Shown here in pieces: positions 118 to 8,732 of a DNA stretch of 64,000 nucleotides; the first letter of the stretch is position 1; each line of letters starts with the position of its first letter. The notes beneath the pieces were generated by a model. It did no database searches and was not told the origin of the DNA. It was given only the letters and a program-made list of their open reading frames with translations. The position numbers and the translations under genes were made by a program. This DNA is from Hydrogenophaga sp. NFH-34 (GTDB lineage: Bacteria > Pseudomonadota > Gammaproteobacteria > Burkholderiales > Burkholderiaceae_C): contig NZ_JACBGE010000003.1 in the NCBI RefSeq assembly GCF_021401345.1, positions 1-64,000 on the forward strand, read 5' to 3'.

Positions 118-2310
118 TCACGCCCGAACTGCATAGTCGATAAAACCAGGCACCCCCCCAGCATCAGAAAGCGCGGACAAATGCAGTACCGACATCGCTC
201 TGCTCGCACCCAAGTAAAAGAGCGAGAGTCCACGCCTCTTATCTCTCACTCCAACGGCCTCCCCACTAAATAAAACAGCATCACTCACATCAATTAGATA
301 CACCTCATCAAATTGAAGTCCAGCGACAAATTCAGGCATTGACAGGACAAATCTAACCCCTCGGCTAGGGATTAAAGTTATATCCTCCCTAGATTCAACC
401 GGAATAAATAGGTCGCGATGCTGCCCTGCCAGTAAATATCTCTTGAAGTTATCATAATCACAGGAAAGAACAGCAACAGAACGCCCACTTTTGCGCTTCT
501 TTGCACTTAGAGACGCCTCTGGGAAAATAGAATCATACTGGGATCTCAGATCATTAAACAGCCTCACATCAGGCACCGGACCTGAGGGCAACTTACTCTC
601 TTGACTGTAACTAGGCCAATCCTCTTGCAAATTTAGAGTTGGAGCAAATTCATCGACGGCACGAAGCAAGCTATTGATCTGCGGAGTATATCGAAACACC
701 TCATTAAGATCGAAATTCTCCATTCCATCAAGACCCCTTTGCCAAGACCTAAGTCCTTGCCCAACTCGTCGAACATCCTGTTTAGTATCTTCCGCCATCA
801 CCACAACGGGGCGCGAACTAGGATCTCGCTGCAAAGAGGTGATCAACATCCGCTCCATACGATTCAAAAGATGCAATTCATCAACAAAAATCACATCAAA
901 CCCAGAGACACCCCTAGTCAACTCCCAAGCATTTGAATCGAGAAATCGATCAAAATCCGAAACCAACTGGTCCATACTAATAGCTTCAGCCTCCCGCATC
1001 TCCTTACGGAATCTGGCATGAAGGTCAATCATAACCCTCCGTTCATCCATTGCTCCAAGCTGAAGTCGCCAAGCTTCGCGCGCAGCCTTCGAGATGTATT
1101 CGGTTCTTTTTTGTGCCGATCTTGCAACCCCTTCGGGCTCAAGAACACAAGCAAATTCGTTAAGAACTTCATATAGAAATTGAGCACCCCCCTCTCTCTG
1201 TGCAGCGGCCGCCTCCATCAGTTCGACAAACGCATTTGAGCAACCACCCTTGCGAGCAATCCAATCAGTTGCAACATAGTCCTTTACAACACTTTCAAGA
1301 AGCTCATACTGCATTTCCCTACCTTGACGACCATCAAGAGATAGAGGAACCACCCCCCTTAGCTCGGTACCAAGGGTGTCATATGCAAGTGAATATAGAG
1401 TCCCGATATATAGCAAAGAGCCGTCGCCAGCAATTTCTGATGTTTTTTCATCGCCAATCATTGTTCGGACCATCGACTGAACGACTTCAACTGTGGCTTG
1501 ACTATGAGTTAGAAATCCGTATCTTGTACTCCTCTTTGCAGCTTTATCTAACTCAAGTTGCCGCAGCGTCTTAACAACCATGGCAACGGTTTTTCCACTC
1601 CCTCCTGGCCCTCGAACACGGATACTTCTGCTCAACGGAAAGTCGACAAACTTGCGTTGGGTTTCCGTGAGCTTTGATTCATACCACACATCCAAAGAAG
1701 GCCCCAAACCCAAGGATCTATTCGTAGCCTCGAGATCGAACGCGCCATCATCAAACCCTCGGGGAATGTTTTTTGGCAGATCTTTCAAAACACCGGCAAG
1801 GCAACTCAGAATGGCTGTTTCAGGCGGGACCTTTGGCAATCGATCCATGAGGTCGACATCATCATCGATGACACCGTAAGAAACACCAATAATTTTCGCA
1901 AACTTCTTGCGATCAAACAGAACTCTTGCCCTCTCACCCTTAGCACGCGGACTCGACTGGATGCTAATTAAACTATCCGAATTAAAAGACCTCCAAAGCG
2001 AAGGAATTGAGGTTGATTGATCCACATTTGCTTGAACCAATCTCAACACTCTATTGAACGCCTCTACTTTCCTAGCAGCTGCCAATCCCTCGAACAGTCC
2101 GGAGTCAGTAAGAGCAAATGCAGCACAATACGACTCATTGACTGCCACAGCCTCATCTGGCGTCCACACAATTAACGACCCATCACCCATCCGGAAAGAT
2201 GGCAATGGAAGAAGGGAAGGCAATAGCGAATCAAACCACTCAGCCGGAGGCGGTCCATATATCTGAAAAAAACGACACGCTTCCAAAGTAACAAACGCAT
2301 ACTGAGTCAT
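118..2310 (-). CDS. Superfamily I DNA/RNA helicase-like ATPase (730 aa)
   Basis: A UvrD/Rep-type superfamily I helicase. The first ~230 residues match nothing I recognise. The helicase core starts with Walker A GPGGSGKT near residue 236 and Walker B/motif II VIFVDELHL near 473. A FRYTPQINSLL arginine motif lies near 540, and a motif VI-like FYLGASRAM near 700, just before the C-terminus. The ATG overlaps the stop of the preceding 279-aa gene (ATGA), so translation is probably coupled. Base composition is clearly AT-richer than the chromosome, a sign of recent transfer. The pairing with the unknown upstream protein and with a NERD helicase suggests a DNA-processing or antiphage role; that role is inference. 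Confidence 0.8.
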   Translation of the reverse strand: MTQYAFVTLEACRFFQIYGPPPAEWFDSLLPSLLPLPSFRMGDGSLIVWTPDEAVAVNESYCAAFALTDSGLFEGLAAARKVEAFNRVLRLVQANVDQSTSIPSLWRSFNSDSLISIQSSPRAKGERARVLFDRKKFAKIIGVSYGVIDDDVDLMDRLPKVPPETAILSCLAGVLKDLPKNIPRGFDDGAFDLEATNRSLGLGPSLDVWYESKLTETQRKFVDFPLSRSIRVRGPGGSGKTVAMVVKTLRQLELDKAAKRSTRYGFLTHSQATVEVVQSMVRTMIGDEKTSEIAGDGSLLYIGTLYSLAYDTLGTELRGVVPLSLDGRQGREMQYELLESVVKDYVATDWIARKGGCSNAFVELMEAAAAQREGGAQFLYEVLNEFACVLEPEGVARSAQKRTEYISKAAREAWRLQLGAMDERRVMIDLHARFRKEMREAEAISMDQLVSDFDRFLDSNAWELTRGVSGFDVIFVDELHLLNRMERMLITSLQRDPSSRPVVVMAEDTKQDVRRVGQGLRSWQRGLDGMENFDLNEVFRYTPQINSLLRAVDEFAPTLNLQEDWPSYSQESKLPSGPVPDVRLFNDLRSQYDSIFPEASLSAKKRKSGRSVAVLSCDYDNFKRYLLAGQHRDLFIPVESREDITLIPSRGVRFVLSMPEFVAGLQFDEVYLIDVSDAVLFSGEAVGVRDKRRGLSLFYLGASRAMSVLHLSALSDAGGVPGFIDYAVRA

Positions 2311-3146
2311 TTCAAAATCTCCATCATTGTTTTCACAATCGTTTCTTGCTCATCTTTAAAACTATCAGTCAAACCAATTCTAGCAAAGTAGTTTGTCATC
2401 TTCTGAATCAAAGACTGAAGCAAAACGGGACGGCAGGTTGCCACTGGAATAAACATCCCTACCTCCTTTGCATCGAAACTTAACTCCACTTTAGACATCA
2501 GTTTTAGCGATTTAAACGGAACCACATGACCAAGAGTTTCAAACTCTCCCGGCAGGGCAGGCAAAATGTAATGATCAACTCGCGTTGACAGCAATCTCGA
2601 TTGCAACTCTTTTTTAATTTTTTTGTTAATCCCATCTACTTTTCCAGAAAGCTGTAAATTATCGCACTTCAGCAGAAAATCGGAAAAATCAGTGGCACAG
2701 TCTACCGACGAAGACTCACGACGACTCAACCATTTCTTTATCGACTCAAGGAGATCTTTTTCATTCGAATGAATACCAGGCAAATCAATCGCCCATCTAG
2801 ATGAATCACCATTAAGAATCCATTCATTCAAAACCTCATCAGACACCGAAGCAAAATTGGGTTGCTTGGCGACTGCAATTTCACGAGCCGACTGTAAGAC
2901 TATCTTTTTAATTTCGATAAGAGCAGCGCCTCTTGCCGTATGGATTGCGAATTCCTCAATCGGAACAACATCAAGCACAAAGAACTCCTGATGTCCTTTT
3001 TCATCCGTAAGATCACAATCAGCACTAACGACCATTCTTCGATGCAGCTGGCTCTTCTCTTTTTTGCAAATGACTGTCCCTTGCCAAATAGTGGTTAGCT
3101 GTCCTCGATAAGGATCAATGCCAAACCTGTGTTTACGATCTTCCAC
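2307..3146 (-). CDS. Unrecognised 279-aa protein in helicase operon
   Basis: I do not recognise this family. The protein is soluble, with no signal peptide or membrane segment. An N-terminal stretch VVSADCDL (about residues 40-47) lies in a beta-rich segment, followed by a Lys/Arg-rich helical middle and a C-terminal part with hydrophobic strands. The start is GTG at 3146, preceded by a GGAAGG-type ribosome site. It begins 26 bp after the NERD-helicase stop, and its own stop overlaps the ATG of the next helicase gene by 4 bp. It shares the AT-rich composition of that helicase, so the two probably arrived as one unit. It may be the specificity or effector subunit of a helicase system; this is inferred from context only. 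Confidence 0.6.
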   Translation of the reverse strand: MEDRKHRFGIDPYRGQLTTIWQGTVICKKEKSQLHRRMVVSADCDLTDEKGHQEFFVLDVVPIEEFAIHTARGAALIEIKKIVLQSAREIAVAKQPNFASVSDEVLNEWILNGDSSRWAIDLPGIHSNEKDLLESIKKWLSRRESSSVDCATDFSDFLLKCDNLQLSGKVDGINKKIKKELQSRLLSTRVDHYILPALPGEFETLGHVVPFKSLKLMSKVELSFDAKEVGMFIPVATCRPVLLQSLIQKMTNYFARIGLTDSFKDEQETIVKTMMEILK

Positions 3147-3172
3147 AAAACAACCCTTCCTACTTAATGTCT

Positions 3173-5017
3173 TTAGTTCATGTTTGAGAGCTTGCTAGAG
3201 AAAGCTCCACCCCCTGCAAGACCAATCACCAACCGCTGCGTCGCCCGCGTTGCCCCCACATAGAACAGCCGCGCTTCCTCGCGCTCGTCTTCGCCCTCGG
3301 CGGGCATGCGCCCGGCGCCCACCAGCGCCACCACCGGGAACTCCAGCCCTTTGCTGACGTGCAGCGTCATCACCTTGATGCTGTCGTGCGCGGGGTCGAA
3401 CACGCTGGACGAGTTGCGGCGCAGCTGGTGCGGCAGCTTGCGTTTGCGCAGGAATTCGGCGCACATGTCCATTTCGCTGTGGTGGCGGCAGAGGATGGCC
3501 ATGTCGGCCCAGGCGTGGCCTTCGCGGTGGGCGGTGGCCAGCAGCTCGGCCACCTGGGCCACCTCTTCGCGCAGGGTGGGCAGACGCACGATGAGCGGCG
3601 CCTCGCCGTCGCGCCCGCAGCTCACGGGCTTGAGCAGGGGCACGCCGTCGTCGTCCTTGTCTTCGGCCGTGAGTAGATCAGCTGCAACAAGGCTCGCGGT
3701 CTGCAAGATTTGCCGCGTGTTGCGGTAGTTGATCTTGAGGATGGTGGTGCGCCCCTGCGCCTGTATGCCCACGCTCTTGAAGCTGAAGTTTTTGCTCTTC
3801 TGCGTGCGTTCGTAGATGCTCTGCGCGTCGTCGTACAGCACGAGCAGGCTGTTGGTGGCGGGGTCCACCATCTGCACCACCAGGCGCAGCCATTCGGGCG
3901 CGAAGTCGTGGCCTTCGTCGATGAGCACGGCCTGGTATTGGCCGCTGGGGATCTGGCGGCGGTCCACGCCGGTGATGACGCGCTGGACCATGTCGGCCAT
4001 CTTGTCGGTTACGGGCTGGTTGTTGTCGGGCAGGCTTTGCCCGTAGGCCACCAGCTGGTCGCGACACCATTTGTGGAAGTGCACGGCGTGCACGCGGTCG
4101 GCGATGCCTTTGGCGCCCATCACGCGGGCAATCTGCCGGGCCAGCGGTTCGTTGTAGCAGAGGATGAGGATGGGTTTGCTGGCCCCCTCTGCCTGTGACT
4201 TCTGCGCCTTGGCCAGGTGTTCGGCGCGGTAGCCCAGCAGCATGGTCTTGCCCGACCCGGCCACGCCGTGGATGACGCGGTGCCCATCGCCCAGGCTGCG
4301 GGCCAGCTGTTCCTGCTGCAGGTCCATCACGCGCATGATGCTGGGCAGTTCGGCGGCTTCGTCGCTGTCGTCAAACAGCTGGTCCTGCACCTGCACGCGC
4401 ACCTCGGGGAACATGATCCAGCGCACCCGGTCCATCTGCGGCAGCGACATGACGCCGCCCATCATGAAGGGGAACATGTCCCACAGCCGGCTTTGCAGCG
4501 CCTCGGGCTCCACCTGTTCGCCCATCTCGTCCTGGCAGATGACGCGGTGCGGTTCGATGGCGTGGGCGAGTTCGGCTTTGTCGAACTGCGCGCGGGTGAT
4601 GTTGGGCAGCACCACGCCGTAGCTCCACGGAAAGGCCAGCTTGCCCTGGTGCCGGCCTTCAGGCTGCACCAGCTGCGGGTCGCGCTCCAGCGCGTGGACC
4701 ACCTGGTGCGCGTACTGCCGGGCCTGCTCCAGCGGGTTGGGAATGGTCTTGGGGCCGAGCTCGCCGTGGATGTCCCAGGTCTGCTTGTTGGCCTGGATGA
4801 GAGTTGAGAGCCGGAAGTCCTTGACCTCCAGGATCAGGATGCCCCGGCGCGGGTGCATCACCACAAAGTCCGGGTGCTGGTGCTTGGGGCCGACGGCCAC
4901 GTCGTACCAGAGCAGGTAGTCGGCGTCGAGCTTCTGTTCAAGCCGCTCGGCGGTGCGGCGTTCGCCGGGCGTCATGCGTGCAACGCAACTGCCCAGGGCG
5001 GGTATCAGTGTGGCCAT
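3173..5017 (-). CDS. NERD-domain superfamily I helicase
   Basis: A 614-aa protein with an N-terminal NERD (nuclease-related) domain in about residues 15-120, including GILILEVKDF, the usual nuclease-fold core. A UvrD-like helicase follows: Walker A GVAGSGKT near 255, motif II VLIDEGHDF near 368, an INYRNTRQI arginine motif, motif V HVSKGLEFPVV near 558 and motif VI LFYVGATRA near 585. The start at MATLIPALG is chosen over an in-frame start 66 bp upstream, because the NERD fold begins immediately after it. GC content is like the host's, unlike the two genes downstream of it. A 71-bp piece of this gene (3292-3362) is repeated at 7123-7193. NERD helicases are widespread and thought to act in DNA processing or defence; the target here is unknown. 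Confidence 0.85.
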   Translation of the reverse strand: MATLIPALGSCVARMTPGERRTAERLEQKLDADYLLWYDVAVGPKHQHPDFVVMHPRRGILILEVKDFRLSTLIQANKQTWDIHGELGPKTIPNPLEQARQYAHQVVHALERDPQLVQPEGRHQGKLAFPWSYGVVLPNITRAQFDKAELAHAIEPHRVICQDEMGEQVEPEALQSRLWDMFPFMMGGVMSLPQMDRVRWIMFPEVRVQVQDQLFDDSDEAAELPSIMRVMDLQQEQLARSLGDGHRVIHGVAGSGKTMLLGYRAEHLAKAQKSQAEGASKPILILCYNEPLARQIARVMGAKGIADRVHAVHFHKWCRDQLVAYGQSLPDNNQPVTDKMADMVQRVITGVDRRQIPSGQYQAVLIDEGHDFAPEWLRLVVQMVDPATNSLLVLYDDAQSIYERTQKSKNFSFKSVGIQAQGRTTILKINYRNTRQILQTASLVAADLLTAEDKDDDGVPLLKPVSCGRDGEAPLIVRLPTLREEVAQVAELLATAHREGHAWADMAILCRHHSEMDMCAEFLRKRKLPHQLRRNSSSVFDPAHDSIKVMTLHVSKGLEFPVVALVGAGRMPAEGEDEREEARLFYVGATRATQRLVIGLAGGGAFSSKLSNMN

Positions 5018-5119
5018 CTGACTTGTGTGTATTTGTTTCCCTGGGCGGCATGATGCACCAACTCGCAGGAAACACAGCCGCACTCGCTGTCAACAGTGCC
5101 CATCGGTACACTCGCGCCC

Positions 5120-5428
5120 ATGCACCCCGCCATCACCCAACACCGCGCGTCCATCGCGGCCATCTGCCAGCGCTACGGCATCCGCCGGCTGGAGGTGTTT
5201 GGCTCGGCCGCGCGGGGCGACGACTTTGTGGCCGAGAGCAGCGACGCGGACTTTCTGGTGGAGTTCGCGGCGGACGCATCACCCGACCTTCGCAGCTTCT
5301 ACGGCGCCAAGGCAGAGCTTGAGCAGTTGCTGGGCCGGGGTGTGGACCTGGTAGAGCCGGGCGCGGTGCGCAACCCCTACGTGCTGGCCAGCATCAACCG
5401 CCACCGCGAGCCTGTGTATGCAGCGTGA
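5120..5428 (+). CDS. mntA: MNT-type nucleotidyltransferase antitoxin, copy A
   Basis: A minimal nucleotidyltransferase of 102 aa carrying the signature FGSAARG followed by SDADF, the two metal-binding aspartates of the family. In HEPN/MNT toxin-antitoxin pairs this enzyme adds AMP to the HEPN RNase and silences it. The start ATG sits 8 nt after a TACACT -10-like hexamer conserved in both copies, so the mRNA may be leaderless. The reading frame is intact. The following HEPN gene overlaps its stop but is damaged. Copy B at 7224-7532 differs at only three residues. Confidence 0.85.
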   Translation: MHPAITQHRASIAAICQRYGIRRLEVFGSAARGDDFVAESSDADFLVEFAADASPDLRSFYGAKAELEQLLGRGVDLVEPGAVRNPYVLASINRHREPVYAA

Positions 5429-5760
5429 CCCGCGCCTTCCTGTGAGATGTGCGCGAGGCGGCGCAAGCGATCCAGTCGTTCACGACGGGTCTGGACGTCA
5501 AGGGTTACGTCAGCAATGAGCTGGTGCAGGCGGCGGTCGAGCGCAAGTTCGAGGTGATCGGTGAAGCGCTCAACCAGTTGGCGAAGTTGGACTCTGCGAT
5601 GGCCGCCCGCATCCCGGACGTCCCGCAGATCGTGGCCTTTCGCAACCAGCTGATCCACGGGTACGCAACGGTCAACCCGGACACGGTGTGGAACATCGTG
5701 CAGTACGCGCTGCCGGGACTGCTGGCGGCGGTGCAGCGCTTGTTGGACGATTTGGCATAA
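5418..5760 (+). pseudogene. hepT: HEPN toxin (DUF86/HepT-like), copy A, 5' end broken
   Basis: Homologous to the HEPN reading frame at 7522, whose ATG overlaps the MNT stop. Here the first 10 codons carry a 2-nt deletion, and the Trp codon of the intact copy is TGA. Translation from the normal ATG (5418) therefore fails. From a GTG at 5449 an open frame of 103 aa remains, including the catalytic HEPN motif RNQLIHGY (R-x4-H) and the C-terminal helices. It might still be expressed from that GTG, but coupling to MNT is lost. HEPN toxins of this family are RNases kept inactive by MNT adenylylation. Confidence 0.7.
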
Positions 5761-5806: not shown

Positions 5807-5840
5807 CCAATAAATGTCAAGCATATTTGACATTTATTGG
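5807..5840. promoter_or_regulatory. Perfect 14-bp inverted repeat, candidate operator of the XRE-zeta cassette
   Basis: CCAATAAATGTCAA (5807-5820) and TTGACATTTATTGG (5827-5840) are exact reverse complements around GCATAT. The site is AT-rich in a GC-rich setting and ends 22 bp before the ATG of the XRE-family gene. Antitoxin regulators of this class usually bind such palindromes over their own promoter, and the right arm contains a consensus -35 TTGACA. Binding by the adjacent protein is inferred. Confidence 0.7.
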
Positions 5841-5862
5841 CTCCGGTGCTCCACTCCAGCCC

Positions 5863-6345
5863 ATGAACCTCGCAGACATCGGCCAACTCGTGCAAGCCCG
5901 CCGTGAGGCGCTGGGCCTTTCGCAGGCGCGGCTGGCGCGGCTGGCCGGGTTGTCGCGCGCGACCATCAACCAGCTGGAAAACGGCTCTCTGGTGGACCTC
6001 GGCGCGGCCAAGCTGTTGGCGCTGCTGAACCTGCTGGGCATGGATCTGGCCGCGCAGCAAAAGACGCCCCAAGTGCACGCGCTGGCCTTGCTGAGCCAGA
6101 CGGCCAGCGTGAGCTACAGGCAGGCGCTGTCGCCGGGCGCGCTGGCCGATGCGCTGGTGGCCGGTGACCTGCCCCCGGCGCTGGTGCCGCAGGTGGCGAC
6201 GCTGCTGGACGAAGCACCTTTGCCACTGATCGTGGCCGGTGTGGCGGAAGCGGCCGAACGCACCCACACGCCGCCCAAGACGCTCTGGAAGCACTTGGCG
6301 GCTTGGGCACAGGCGCTGCAGTCGCCACGGGCCGCCTGGTCATGA
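5863..6345 (+). CDS. XRE-family HTH regulator, putative antitoxin of zeta-like toxin
   Basis: A 160-aa protein with an N-terminal helix-turn-helix (about residues 5-60; core SQARLARLAGLSRATINQLE). The alpha-helical C-terminal half is unlike HipB, which is shorter. The start MNLADIG follows the 14-bp inverted repeat by 22 bp. The final codons overlap the ATG of the zeta-like kinase gene (ATGA), so the two are translationally coupled. The likely role is autorepression of the cassette, with the C-terminal region possibly neutralising the kinase. The order regulator-kinase is seen and the antitoxin role is inferred. Confidence 0.75.
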   Translation: MNLADIGQLVQARREALGLSQARLARLAGLSRATINQLENGSLVDLGAAKLLALLNLLGMDLAAQQKTPQVHALALLSQTASVSYRQALSPGALADALVAGDLPPALVPQVATLLDEAPLPLIVAGVAEAAERTHTPPKTLWKHLAAWAQALQSPRAAWS

Positions 6346-6962
6346 ATGGCAGCAAAGGTGTCATCGACATGAACCCGTCCAACCCACCCAAGAAGCCGAC
6401 CGTGGTGGTCATTGCCGGCCCGAACGGTGCCGGCAAGTCGACCGCTGCGCCGTTTTTGCTCAAGGGCGCCCTGGGCGTGTTGGAGTTCGTGAACGCCGAC
6501 CAGATCGCGGTGGGGCTGTCGGCGTATGCGCCTGAGACGGTGTCGTTCGAGGCGGGGCGCATCATGCTGCGGCGTTTGCACGAGCTGGCGCAATCGGGCA
6601 GCAGCTTCGCGTTCGAGAGCACGCTGTCGAGCCGCAGCTTCGCGAAGTTCCTGCGCGACTGCAAGGCCACCGACTATCAGGTGGTCTTGTTTTACGTGAC
6701 GCTGCCCACCTCCGATCTGGCGGTGCAACGGGTGGCACTTCGCGTGAAGCAAGGCGGGCACAACATTCCGACTGACGACATTCACCGCCGCTTCCGACGC
6801 AGCCTGAGCAACCTGTTCGAGCTGTATTTGCCGCTTTCTGATCGCTGGTCGGTGCTGGATAATGCGAGCGGTCGCCTGGAAACCATTGCGTCCGGAACAC
6901 CGCGCCGCACCTCTGTGAAAGACTCTGAAAAATGGCTTCTGCTTCGGTCCATCGCCCCATGA
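6342..6962 (+). CDS. Zeta-toxin-like P-loop kinase
   Basis: A 206-aa P-loop protein with Walker A AGPNGAGKST about 22 residues from the start, then an NADQIA segment, an FAFESTLSS segment and a basic C-terminal half (DIHRRFRRS). This layout fits the zeta-toxin/AAA_33 family, whose members phosphorylate UDP-N-acetylglucosamine or other small substrates. The ATG overlaps the upstream XRE stop. A second ATG nine codons in is an alternative start. Its own stop overlaps the ATG of a 53-aa gene, giving a three-gene coupled cassette. Toxicity is inferred from the family and from neighbours. Confidence 0.78.
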   Translation: MNGSKGVIDMNPSNPPKKPTVVVIAGPNGAGKSTAAPFLLKGALGVLEFVNADQIAVGLSAYAPETVSFEAGRIMLRRLHELAQSGSSFAFESTLSSRSFAKFLRDCKATDYQVVLFYVTLPTSDLAVQRVALRVKQGGHNIPTDDIHRRFRRSLSNLFELYLPLSDRWSVLDNASGRLETIASGTPRRTSVKDSEKWLLLRSIAP

Positions 6963-7122: not shown

Positions 7123-7193
7123 CGCCCTCGGCGGGCATGCGCCCGGCGCCGACCAGCGCCACCACCGGGAACTCCAGCCCTTTGCTGACGTGC
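7123..7193. repeat. 71-bp duplicated fragment of the NERD-helicase gene
   Basis: Bases 7123-7193 match 3292-3362 in the same orientation with one mismatch that I can see. The source encodes helicase motif V (HVSKGLEFPVV) on the minus strand. The next ~13 bp contain TTGCGTTTGCG, also found at 3438-3448. The MNT copy B leader follows directly. This is a scar of duplication followed by deletion of about 1.7 kb. Confidence 0.85.
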
Positions 7194-7206
7194 CCTTGCG
7201 TTTGCG

Positions 7207-7701
7207 TCGGTACACTCGCGCCCATGCACCCCGCCATTGCCCAACACCGCGCGTCTATCGCGGCCATCTGCCAGCGCTACGGCATTCGCCGGCTGGAGGT
7301 GTTTGGCTCGGCCGCGCGGGGCGATGACTTTGTGGCCGAGACCAGCGACGCGGACTTTCTGGTCGAGTTCGCGGCCGACGCCCGGCCGGACCTGCGCAGC
7401 TTCTACGGCGCCAAGGCCGAGCTGGAGCAGTTGCTGGGCCGGGGTGTGGACCTGGTGGAACCCGGCGCGGTGCGTAACCCCTACGTGCTCGCCAGCATCA
7501 ACCGCCATCGCGAGCCCGTGTATGCAGCGTGACCCGCGAGTCTTCCTGTGGGATGTGCGCGAGGCGGCGCAGGCGATCCAGTCGTTCACGGCGGGTCTGG
7601 ACGTGAAGGGCTATGTCGGCAACGAGCTGGTGCAAGCGGCGGTGGAGCGCAAGTTCGAGGTGATCGGCGAGGCGCTCAACCAGTTGGCGAAGCTGGATGC
7701 G
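7207..7701. repeat. Duplicate of the MNT/HEPN segment 5103-5597
   Basis: From TCGGTACACT onward this segment tracks 5103-5597 with scattered substitutions and a 2-nt length difference inside the HEPN 5' end. Similarity stops in the HEPN gene after LAKLD, where an unrelated restriction-endonuclease tail begins. Together with the 71-bp repeat it makes a direct repeat flanking the XRE-zeta-53 aa cassette. Confidence 0.85.
7224..7532 (+). CDS. mntA: MNT-type nucleotidyltransferase antitoxin, copy B
   Basis: A 102-aa protein with the same FGSAARG and SDADF signature as copy A; the differences are at three positions near residues 6, 40 and 53. The frame and TACACT leader are intact. The stop codon overlaps the ATG of the HEPN reading frame by 11 bp, the normal arrangement of MNT/HEPN pairs. 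Because the partner here lacks its catalytic end, this gene may silence HEPN protein made elsewhere or be a leftover. Confidence 0.85.
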   Translation: MHPAIAQHRASIAAICQRYGIRRLEVFGSAARGDDFVAETSDADFLVEFAADARPDLRSFYGAKAELEQLLGRGVDLVEPGAVRNPYVLASINRHREPVYAA

Positions 7702-7767: not shown

Positions 7768-7906
7768 CTACCGGCGCCCGACCTGCGCGAGCTGCGGCGT
7801 GAAGATGGTGGAACGCACGCCGAAGAACGGCGGCTCGGCATTCTGGGGTTGCGTGCATTCCCCGCGCTGCAGAGCGACGCTGTCGATGCGCTCTGCGCCC
7901 CCCTGA
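7697..7906 (+). pseudogene. C-terminal remnant of a restriction endonuclease with topoisomerase-type zinc finger
   Basis: The 69-aa frame contains SRTPEQQAALLAVATEGDY followed by CASCG and CVHSPRC, a four-cysteine topoisomerase-C4-like zinc ribbon. This is the usual C-terminal end of Mrr-type restriction endonucleases. The catalytic domain is absent: the upstream sequence is the truncated HEPN copy B, so the fragment was joined at a recombination point near 7700. It is open but probably not a functional gene. Confidence 0.65.
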
Positions 7907-8732
7907 CGCACCAGCACCAGCACCAGCACCAGCACCAGCACCAGCACCAGCCCCTGCGCCCATGCCTCGCCGCCCCCACCACCACGTTTACGTCATCGAG
8001 CTGCACCCGGACGTGCTGCAGGAACGCAGGTTCCGCCAGTGCAATCCGGGTTATGTCGAGGGCAAGCCGTGTGTGTACGTGGGCATGACGGGGCTCGACC
8101 CGGATGTGCGCTTTGACAAGCACAAGGCGGGCATCCAGGCCAACGCCTACGCCATGAAGTACGGCCTGCGGCTGCTGCCCGACCTGTACGAGGGCTTCAA
8201 CCCGATGAGCTATGAGGCGGCGCAGCAGCGCGAAATCGAGATCGGCATCGATCTGCGCTCGGCCGGGTTCGGGGTGTGGCAAGCGTGAGGGCGCGGCGCG
8301 TGCGTCCATCACCTCTTCTCTGAGCACGTAATCGTGGACCTGCGCGAAGCGGATGCTGCTGCGCTTCGCCGGTGCGACCGGGCTTTCCGGGCTGGTGCGT
8401 GCCCAAGAAGAACAGTTGTGGGTGTAACCCCAGGTTTCGTTGGCCTTGAGCAGGCTGTCGAGTTTGGCCACCTGCTCCGGGGTTAGCCGGTAGTAGCGGC
8501 TCGCGGCCGGCGTATCGCCATCCTCCATCCCGGTCCGGATATCGCTACCGTCTCCGTTGTCTTCCACGTTGGGATGTGCATCGGGCCAGAGACCGTAGCG
8601 GGTGGTTTTGCCGTCGCGGGTGACAGAGATCCAGGCATGCCCAGCGTCAAAGCCATAGGGATCACCAGTTTCGGGATCCATCTGCCCTTTACGAACGTTG
8701 CTATGAACGCCCAGGATGACGTCTTCTGACAT
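7713..8732 (-). CDS. Cys-His hydrolase-like protein; only the N-terminal ~145 residues look genuine
   Basis: The start ATG at 8732 has a strong GGGAGG ribosome site. The first ~145 residues (down to about 8296) look coding. GHAWISV (His) near residue 31 is followed by YGLWPDAHP and then HNCSSWAR (Cys) near 107. His before Cys suggests a circularly permuted NlpC/P60 (LRAT-like) hydrolase, a fold common among secreted peptidoglycan or lipid hydrolases. Beyond that the frame stays open only as antisense of the GIY-YIG-like gene and the CACCAG tract, giving an implausible Trp/Cys repeat. The natural C-terminus has probably been lost by rearrangement. Confidence 0.5.
   Translation of the reverse strand: MSEDVILGVHSNVRKGQMDPETGDPYGFDAGHAWISVTRDGKTTRYGLWPDAHPNVEDNGDGSDIRTGMEDGDTPAASRYYRLTPEQVAKLDSLLKANETWGYTHNCSSWARTSPESPVAPAKRSSIRFAQVHDYVLREEVMDARAAPSRLPHPEPGRAQIDADLDFALLRRLIAHRVEALVQVGQQPQAVLHGVGVGLDARLVLVKAHIRVEPRHAHVHTRLALDITRIALAEPAFLQHVRVQLDDVNVVVGAARHGRRGWCWCWCWCWCWCWCVRGAQSASTASLCSAGNARNPRMPSRRSSACVPPSSRRSSRRSGAGSHLPWPPPAARPAARACG
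7909..7950. repeat. (CACCAG)7 microsatellite
   Basis: Seven uninterrupted copies of CACCAG, 42 bp, lie between the endonuclease remnant and the GIY-YIG-like gene. A hexamer tract keeps frame when it changes length, so it could extend a coding region without breaking it, or alter spacing upstream of the next ATG at 7962. Confidence 0.95.
7962..8288 (+). CDS. GIY-YIG-like nuclease-fold protein
   Basis: A 108-aa protein with HVYVIEL near the N-terminus and VYVGMTGLDPDVRFDKHKAG around residues 38-57. This resembles the two strands and following helix of the GIY-YIG fold (here VYVI...VYVG, with an arginine after it). A glutamate in the last helix (QREIEIGIDL) could be the metal ligand. The function is unknown; small stand-alone members occur in mobile regions. 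The C-terminal part of the minus-strand frame 7713-8732 overlaps it completely and is probably not coding there. Confidence 0.6.
   Translation: MPRRPHHHVYVIELHPDVLQERRFRQCNPGYVEGKPCVYVGMTGLDPDVRFDKHKAGIQANAYAMKYGLRLLPDLYEGFNPMSYEAAQQREIEIGIDLRSAGFGVWQA

Follow-up and report, generated by a model that had tools for sequence, protein, structure and literature searches.

A helicase gene and a small partner gene of Hydrogenophaga sp. NFH-34 as a probable anti-phage module

Which of the genes at the end of a contig of Hydrogenophaga sp. NFH-34 belong together, and what is their function? The window considered here is the first 64 kb of the 278-kb contig NZ_JACBGE010000003.1, and window base 1 is the contig end. 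The original prediction described two superfamily I (SF1) helicases on one strand around an unrecognised protein of 279 amino acids (aa), and proposed that the three work together. The gene content is confirmed by the open reading frames (ORFs) and by Pfam. The grouping favoured here, with a probability of about 0.62, is a different one. The first helicase and the 279-aa partner would form a horizontally moving two-gene module directed against phages or mobile elements, and the other helicase, of the NERD-UvrD type, would be an older resident whose own 3′ end serves as the landing site of the pair. There is no model for the module in the copies of Pfam, NCBIfam and PADLOC used. The genes of the pair are as follows.

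118–2310, minus strand: helicase of the pair, 730 aa, SF1A (UvrD/Rep-like), second gene of the pair
2307–3146, minus strand: 279-aa partner protein, GTG start, first gene of the pair, unnamed family

Two genes as one unit

It is close to certain that the partner and helicase genes form one unit. Their ORFs overlap by 4 bp, as originally noted, and the two genes stand together in all 17 loci that are readable on both sides, the window included. These loci were reached via the partner (L002 from an Acidovorax metagenome-assembled genome, L004, L012, L064 and L065), via the helicase in plasmids (L006–L011, six of 87 records, and L049, one of 92 records) and in viral sequences (contigs L043 and L044 and the Klebsiella phage L047), or via E. 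coli DNA (L050, one of 113 records). There are near copies among them (L011, L049 and L050; L044 and L047), and L041 and L045, the latter at a contig end, are outside the count. Homologues of the partner lying mostly away from helicases, the observation named beforehand as speaking against a system, were looked for and not seen; the partner is repeatedly paired with an adjacent helicase, several times in defence or mobile-element settings. Damage is present in four of the 17 loci, including a helicase split into two ORFs (L007), an IS5 inserted between the two genes (L049) and the window's own helicase, which is six residues short at its end. A decayed copy with the partner in pieces occupies 3635–8548 of L065, close to an ORF which we take to be integrase-like.

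The two proteins have also diverged together. Identity to the window proteins falls to about 15% for the partners and 17% for the helicases, and partner and helicase distances correlate with r of 0.882 (23 pairs), 0.959 (13 close pairs) and 0.901 (10 distant loci), calculated without L007, L047, L049, L050 and L065, which are broken or near duplicates. For 12 of 21 partners, the longest contig has exactly the same size as that of a helicase among the matches listed. A further five are on contigs under 3 kb, and four have no counterpart among the helicase matches listed.

Several proteobacterial genera have the module, and it also occurs on plasmids of E. coli and in a temperate phage. In the phylum sample the pair family was found in 4 of 398 genomes, its own included, and with a narrower profile in 2 of 398. 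The order sample gave 2 of 399, and the class sample 2 of 369, namely its own genome and a distant 179-aa protein. In E. coli the pair is carried by 113 of 5426 genomes, always on plasmids, and 109 of these cover at least 80%. In 13 of 14 loci the pair has a lower GC content than the DNA flanking it. Phage records gave no match to either of the window's own proteins. The 279-aa protein alone has no match in plasmids, because only the helicase reached distant clades; viral contigs were likewise not found with partner profiles and were reached through the helicase instead.

Several copies have informative neighbours. In the P2-like Klebsiella phage ST16-OXA48phi5.4 (L047), the pair is located between the portal gene and the replication gene, and L044 is arranged alike, with almost identical coordinates. 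This site in P2-like phages is described in PMC9122126 as a cos-proximal hotspot for anti-phage systems. In L043, the pair is between a lambda P gene and a ninB gene. In L012, a type I restriction enzyme gene (E 9.4e-172) precedes it by 1.2 kb, with one unmatched ORF between. Genes with the annotations ThiF and multiubiquitin lie near the pair on three plasmids; weak E1-E2 matches were obtained for the two ThiF proteins that were tested. The pair is likely to be a defence unit, given its location on mobile elements and at defence hotspots of two kinds.

Two Agrobacterium plasmids encode multiubiquitin, ThiF, DUF6527 and UvrD helicase proteins near the pair (L006 12658–16059; L008 928–4329). 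For the neighbouring helicase of L008 (1133 aa) there is a match to RTasHel, a profile associated with DRT (E 1.5e-72).

The two proteins and the systems they resemble

The helicase has a Pfam UvrD-helicase match (E 1.1e-6) and the features of SF1A UvrD/Rep proteins, with Walker A, the DE of motif II, and motifs III–VI with their Q and R residues. The ATPase motifs of the pair helicases are intact. Motif II reads DExH in all 12 helicases read, and its H is found in 63 of 64 sequences of alignment A5. The helicase core is preceded by an N-terminal domain of about 200 aa which is nearly without coverage, 2 of 50 match rows starting before residue 195. At least 98 helicase relatives are among the matches listed, scored only from the 7993 candidates with the most words in common.

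The 279-aa partner has no match in Pfam (E 0.1), PADLOC or NCBIfam. With its 17 close relatives, Pfam gave chance-level rows only at E up to 1 (best 0.024), and 7 further relatives have no Pfam or PADLOC match. Its relatives are few, with 17 and then 21 proteins among about 5.8 billion. Across 26 partner sequences (alignment A7), Q22 G23, A42, C44 D45, Q248 and G258 are invariant, and F254, R256 and I257 of the C-terminal part are near-invariant. The predicted structure shows a barrel like that of MazF and CcdB, to which a helical insert of about 120 aa is added. A sequence search of the Protein Data Bank (PDB) with partner profile A1 returned nothing at E 1. PDB matches to MED15 (profile A7, E 0.29, the sole row below 1) and to OspA (L044 partner as query, E 0.35 and 0.45) were taken as chance. 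The viral structure library gave nothing for the partner at E 0.001, the best row being an unnamed 246-aa protein (E 6.5e-3).

A 179-aa protein of L041 (G899) is related to the C-terminal part of the partner (probability 95.9), and the two are possibly members of a broad unnamed superfamily. This ‘QQGDIL...TQSCDL’ protein is encoded by one of three same-strand genes at 92–1707 of L041, the others being a TIGR04255 protein gene and a 102-aa ORF. It is shorter than the 279-aa family and apparently without the long helical insert.

In plan, the pair resembles two known systems, although the defining features of both that were tested were not found in it. Helicase + DUF2290 (Rousset et al. 2022, PMC9122126) consists of two genes from phage and satellite hotspots and is reported to inhibit T7; like the pair, it joins an ATP-dependent helicase to a protein of unknown role. 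The partners of the pair, however, have no DUF2290 match in Pfam (the window and 17 relatives at E 1, 7 more at E 1 and 2 more at E 0.1). In Gabija, an SF1A helicase (GajB) is also joined with another protein, and the pair helicases match GajB profiles weakly. The differences are that no GajA-type OLD/TOPRIM nuclease is recognised in the pair (window and 7 relatives; Pfam and PADLOC), that motif II is DExH and not the DEXQD given for GajB in PMC10781630, and that the N-terminal domain is extra to the pair helicase. The barrel of the partner model recalls MazF, PemK and CcdB. Unlike these, the partner has the helical insert, a conserved CD motif, no recognisable MazF active site and no Pfam PemK match or profile link. 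By sequence, membership of the partner in PemK, DUF2290 or Gabija was rejected. No description of the pair was found in the titles and opening abstract lines of the literature covered, most subscription papers, preprints and post-2023 defence libraries being outside that coverage. The pair is probably an as yet undescribed defence system of bacteria, though a description may exist elsewhere.

The helicase would be an ATP-driven DNA translocase, equipped with an N-terminal domain of its own, and would engage phage DNA that is abnormal or replicating. The small protein, whose barrel and insert are known from the model only, would bind the helicase and, once the helicase is engaged, act as an effector or, failing that, as an adaptor. 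The assignment of the helicase as DNA sensor or motor and of the partner as barrel effector is tentative, its odds being somewhat below even. If the barrel is the effector, a toxin-like fold would be wired to a helicase sensor. A more detailed version is rather unlikely: a DNA-sensing SF1 helicase would control a MazF/CcdB-fold effector which has lost the classic toxin active site and gained a new one (invariant QG and CD motifs, helical insert), and which would belong to a larger unnamed superfamily of ‘QGDI...SCDL’ proteins serving several bacterial conflict systems.

A number of results weigh against the favoured reading or its barrel effector. The structure model was built on 22 sequences and has a pLDDT of 77, and plain Foldseek places MazF third (E 0.57), after two unrelated low-probability rows. 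In hhalign, the partner against 25 MazF/PemK sequences gave a probability of 1.2 local and 1.5 global, with 0.1 and 0.5 for the reversed-partner control, and profile comparison with a single MazF gave no support for homology. MazF homology of the partner is thus unsupported by sequence profile. No conserved MazF-type arginine is apparent among the 26 partner sequences; the residue at position 37 is arginine in 10 of them, lysine in 5, glycine in 10 and phenylalanine in 1, and its register against MazF is uncertain. No defence gene was recognised at L002, beside gyrB and a polymerase beta gene, or among the annotated neighbours at L010. Finally, placement on plasmids and prophages also fits a gene serving the element's own replication.

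The likeliest alternative retains the defence module. The partner would be a DNA-binding or loading adaptor that is neither toxic nor enzymatically active; its barrel would be a scaffold, and the work would fall to the helicase. This is possible at roughly one chance in three, and its odds overlap with those of the favoured explanation. The apparent lack of a conserved MazF-like catalytic arginine and the strong co-divergence of the two proteins are in its favour, and the C-terminal motif of invariant and near-invariant residues (Q-x5-F-x-R-[IV]-G) would fit a binding surface. However, the invariant C44-D45 with Q22-G23 would suit an active site or a ligand site better than a scaffold, and the 179-aa relative has no helicase in the 1.7 kb read around it, one side of which is a contig end.

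It is improbable that the pair has no part in defence and instead helps mobile elements (plasmids, prophages) to replicate or repair their DNA, having spread to chromosomes as well. Its presence on conjugative plasmids, viral contigs and one phage would agree with this, as would the Rep/UvrD-like helicase. Nevertheless, the locus occupied in the P2-like phage is accessory and exchangeable, the pair occurs sporadically (in the phylum sample, 3 of the 397 genomes besides its own), and the window copy and L012 are at or near defence genes. Slightly more doubtful again is a toxin-antitoxin-like addiction module, in which a MazF/CcdB-fold toxin is held in check by the helicase. The fold of the partner model and the plasmid and phage location are consistent with it. 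The antitoxins of MazF and CcdB are short DNA-binding proteins, whereas the restraining protein here would be a 730-aa ATPase, and toxin catalytic residues are not recognisable in the partner. An infection-triggered version of such a module is the favoured explanation itself.

The NERD helicase gene and its 3′ end

Upstream of the pair are the following features.

3147–3221, minus strand: low-GC stretch, GC 43%, between the partner gene and base 3222
3173–5083, minus strand: NERD-UvrD helicase, 636-aa ORF, start more likely at 5017

The proposal that the three genes work together is supported for the partner and its helicase and not supported for the NERD helicase: a three-gene system, suggested by the shared strand and the 26 bp from the NERD stop to the 279-aa start, was rejected as highly improbable, since a search with NERD protein residues 1–240 gave no match at E 1e-3 in any of the 16 other pair loci, the NERD gene is in 31 of 60 genus genomes (own genome and fragments included) with other DNA behind it in the six opened, against 1 of 36 for the 279-aa gene, and GC is 66% in the NERD gene (from base 3222) against 46% in the pair. 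The search for the 279-aa gene covered 60 relatives, 36 of them of the genus, and found it in its own genome alone; 24 of the 60 genus genomes in the NERD survey were outside it.

Pfam finds NERD (E 8.2e-13) and UvrD_C (E 8.6e-26) at 3173–5083. The PADLOC candidate C3a187 (NERD+UvrD) matches this gene and not the pair (E 2.4e-163). Its alignment begins at residue 23, which is the start of the ORF of relative L037, and the inner ATG at 5017 is more likely the gene start.

DNA homology to six relatives (L034–L039) ends at base 3222 in all six, within the last NERD codons, and beyond this junction they carry other DNA. The stretch 3147–3221 carries the last 15 residues and the stop codon of the NERD ORF and likely holds the ribosome-binding site of the 279-aa gene; it arrived together with the pair. 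Among nine proteins from four of the six relatives, five have PADLOC matches, at least one in each of the four. L034 has a type II methyltransferase 1.1 kb and DpdB 2.5 kb behind the NERD gene. In L035, PD-Lambda-2_C is 3 kb behind it, past a second and incomplete copy of the NERD 3′ end, and the next gene is RT_UG19 in L037 and PDC-S06 in L039. Within the genus, the NERD-UvrD 3′ end has the look of a hotspot for cargo genes, and the pair, at 46% GC within 66% surroundings, is one more cargo. This 3′ end is a practical new place for finding defence genes in the genus. The first ORFs behind the NERD gene in L034 and L035 are similar and presumably NYN-like. Partial copies of the NERD 3′ end are also nearby in L035, L036 and L038.

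Flanking elements

On either side of these genes are the following.

1–121, strand not assigned: insertion sequence end, multi-copy, at the contig end
5096–5760, plus strand: MntA/HepT-like toxin-antitoxin genes (Pfam NTP_transf_2 and HepT-like)
5827–6962, plus strand: helix-turn-helix (HTH) gene and Zeta-toxin-like gene (Pfam HTH_3 and Zeta_toxin)

The last two gene pairs bear out the toxin-antitoxin border described at the outset. Their NCBIfam matches, to MntA/HepT for the former and couple_hipB for the latter, are below cut-off.

The insertion sequence end is found at five other genome positions with 100% identity. The element, whose ORFs are located on contig C51, is presumably of the IS66 family. 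Compared with P0022, a relative of 93% identity, the window helicase ends 6 residues early because the insertion sequence end supplies the stop codon, and the contig breaks at the window start because this end is multi-copy.

Within 7123–7697 there is a second copy of 71 bp from the 3′ region of the NERD gene, with 98.6% identity to 3292–3362. Another mntA/hepT-like stretch (7207–7697, 92% to 5103–5591) comes 13 bp after it, and the whole reads as a recombination scar. At about 7850–7960, there is a low-complexity tandem repeat within ORFs, with translations of GAGAGA or WCWCWC runs.

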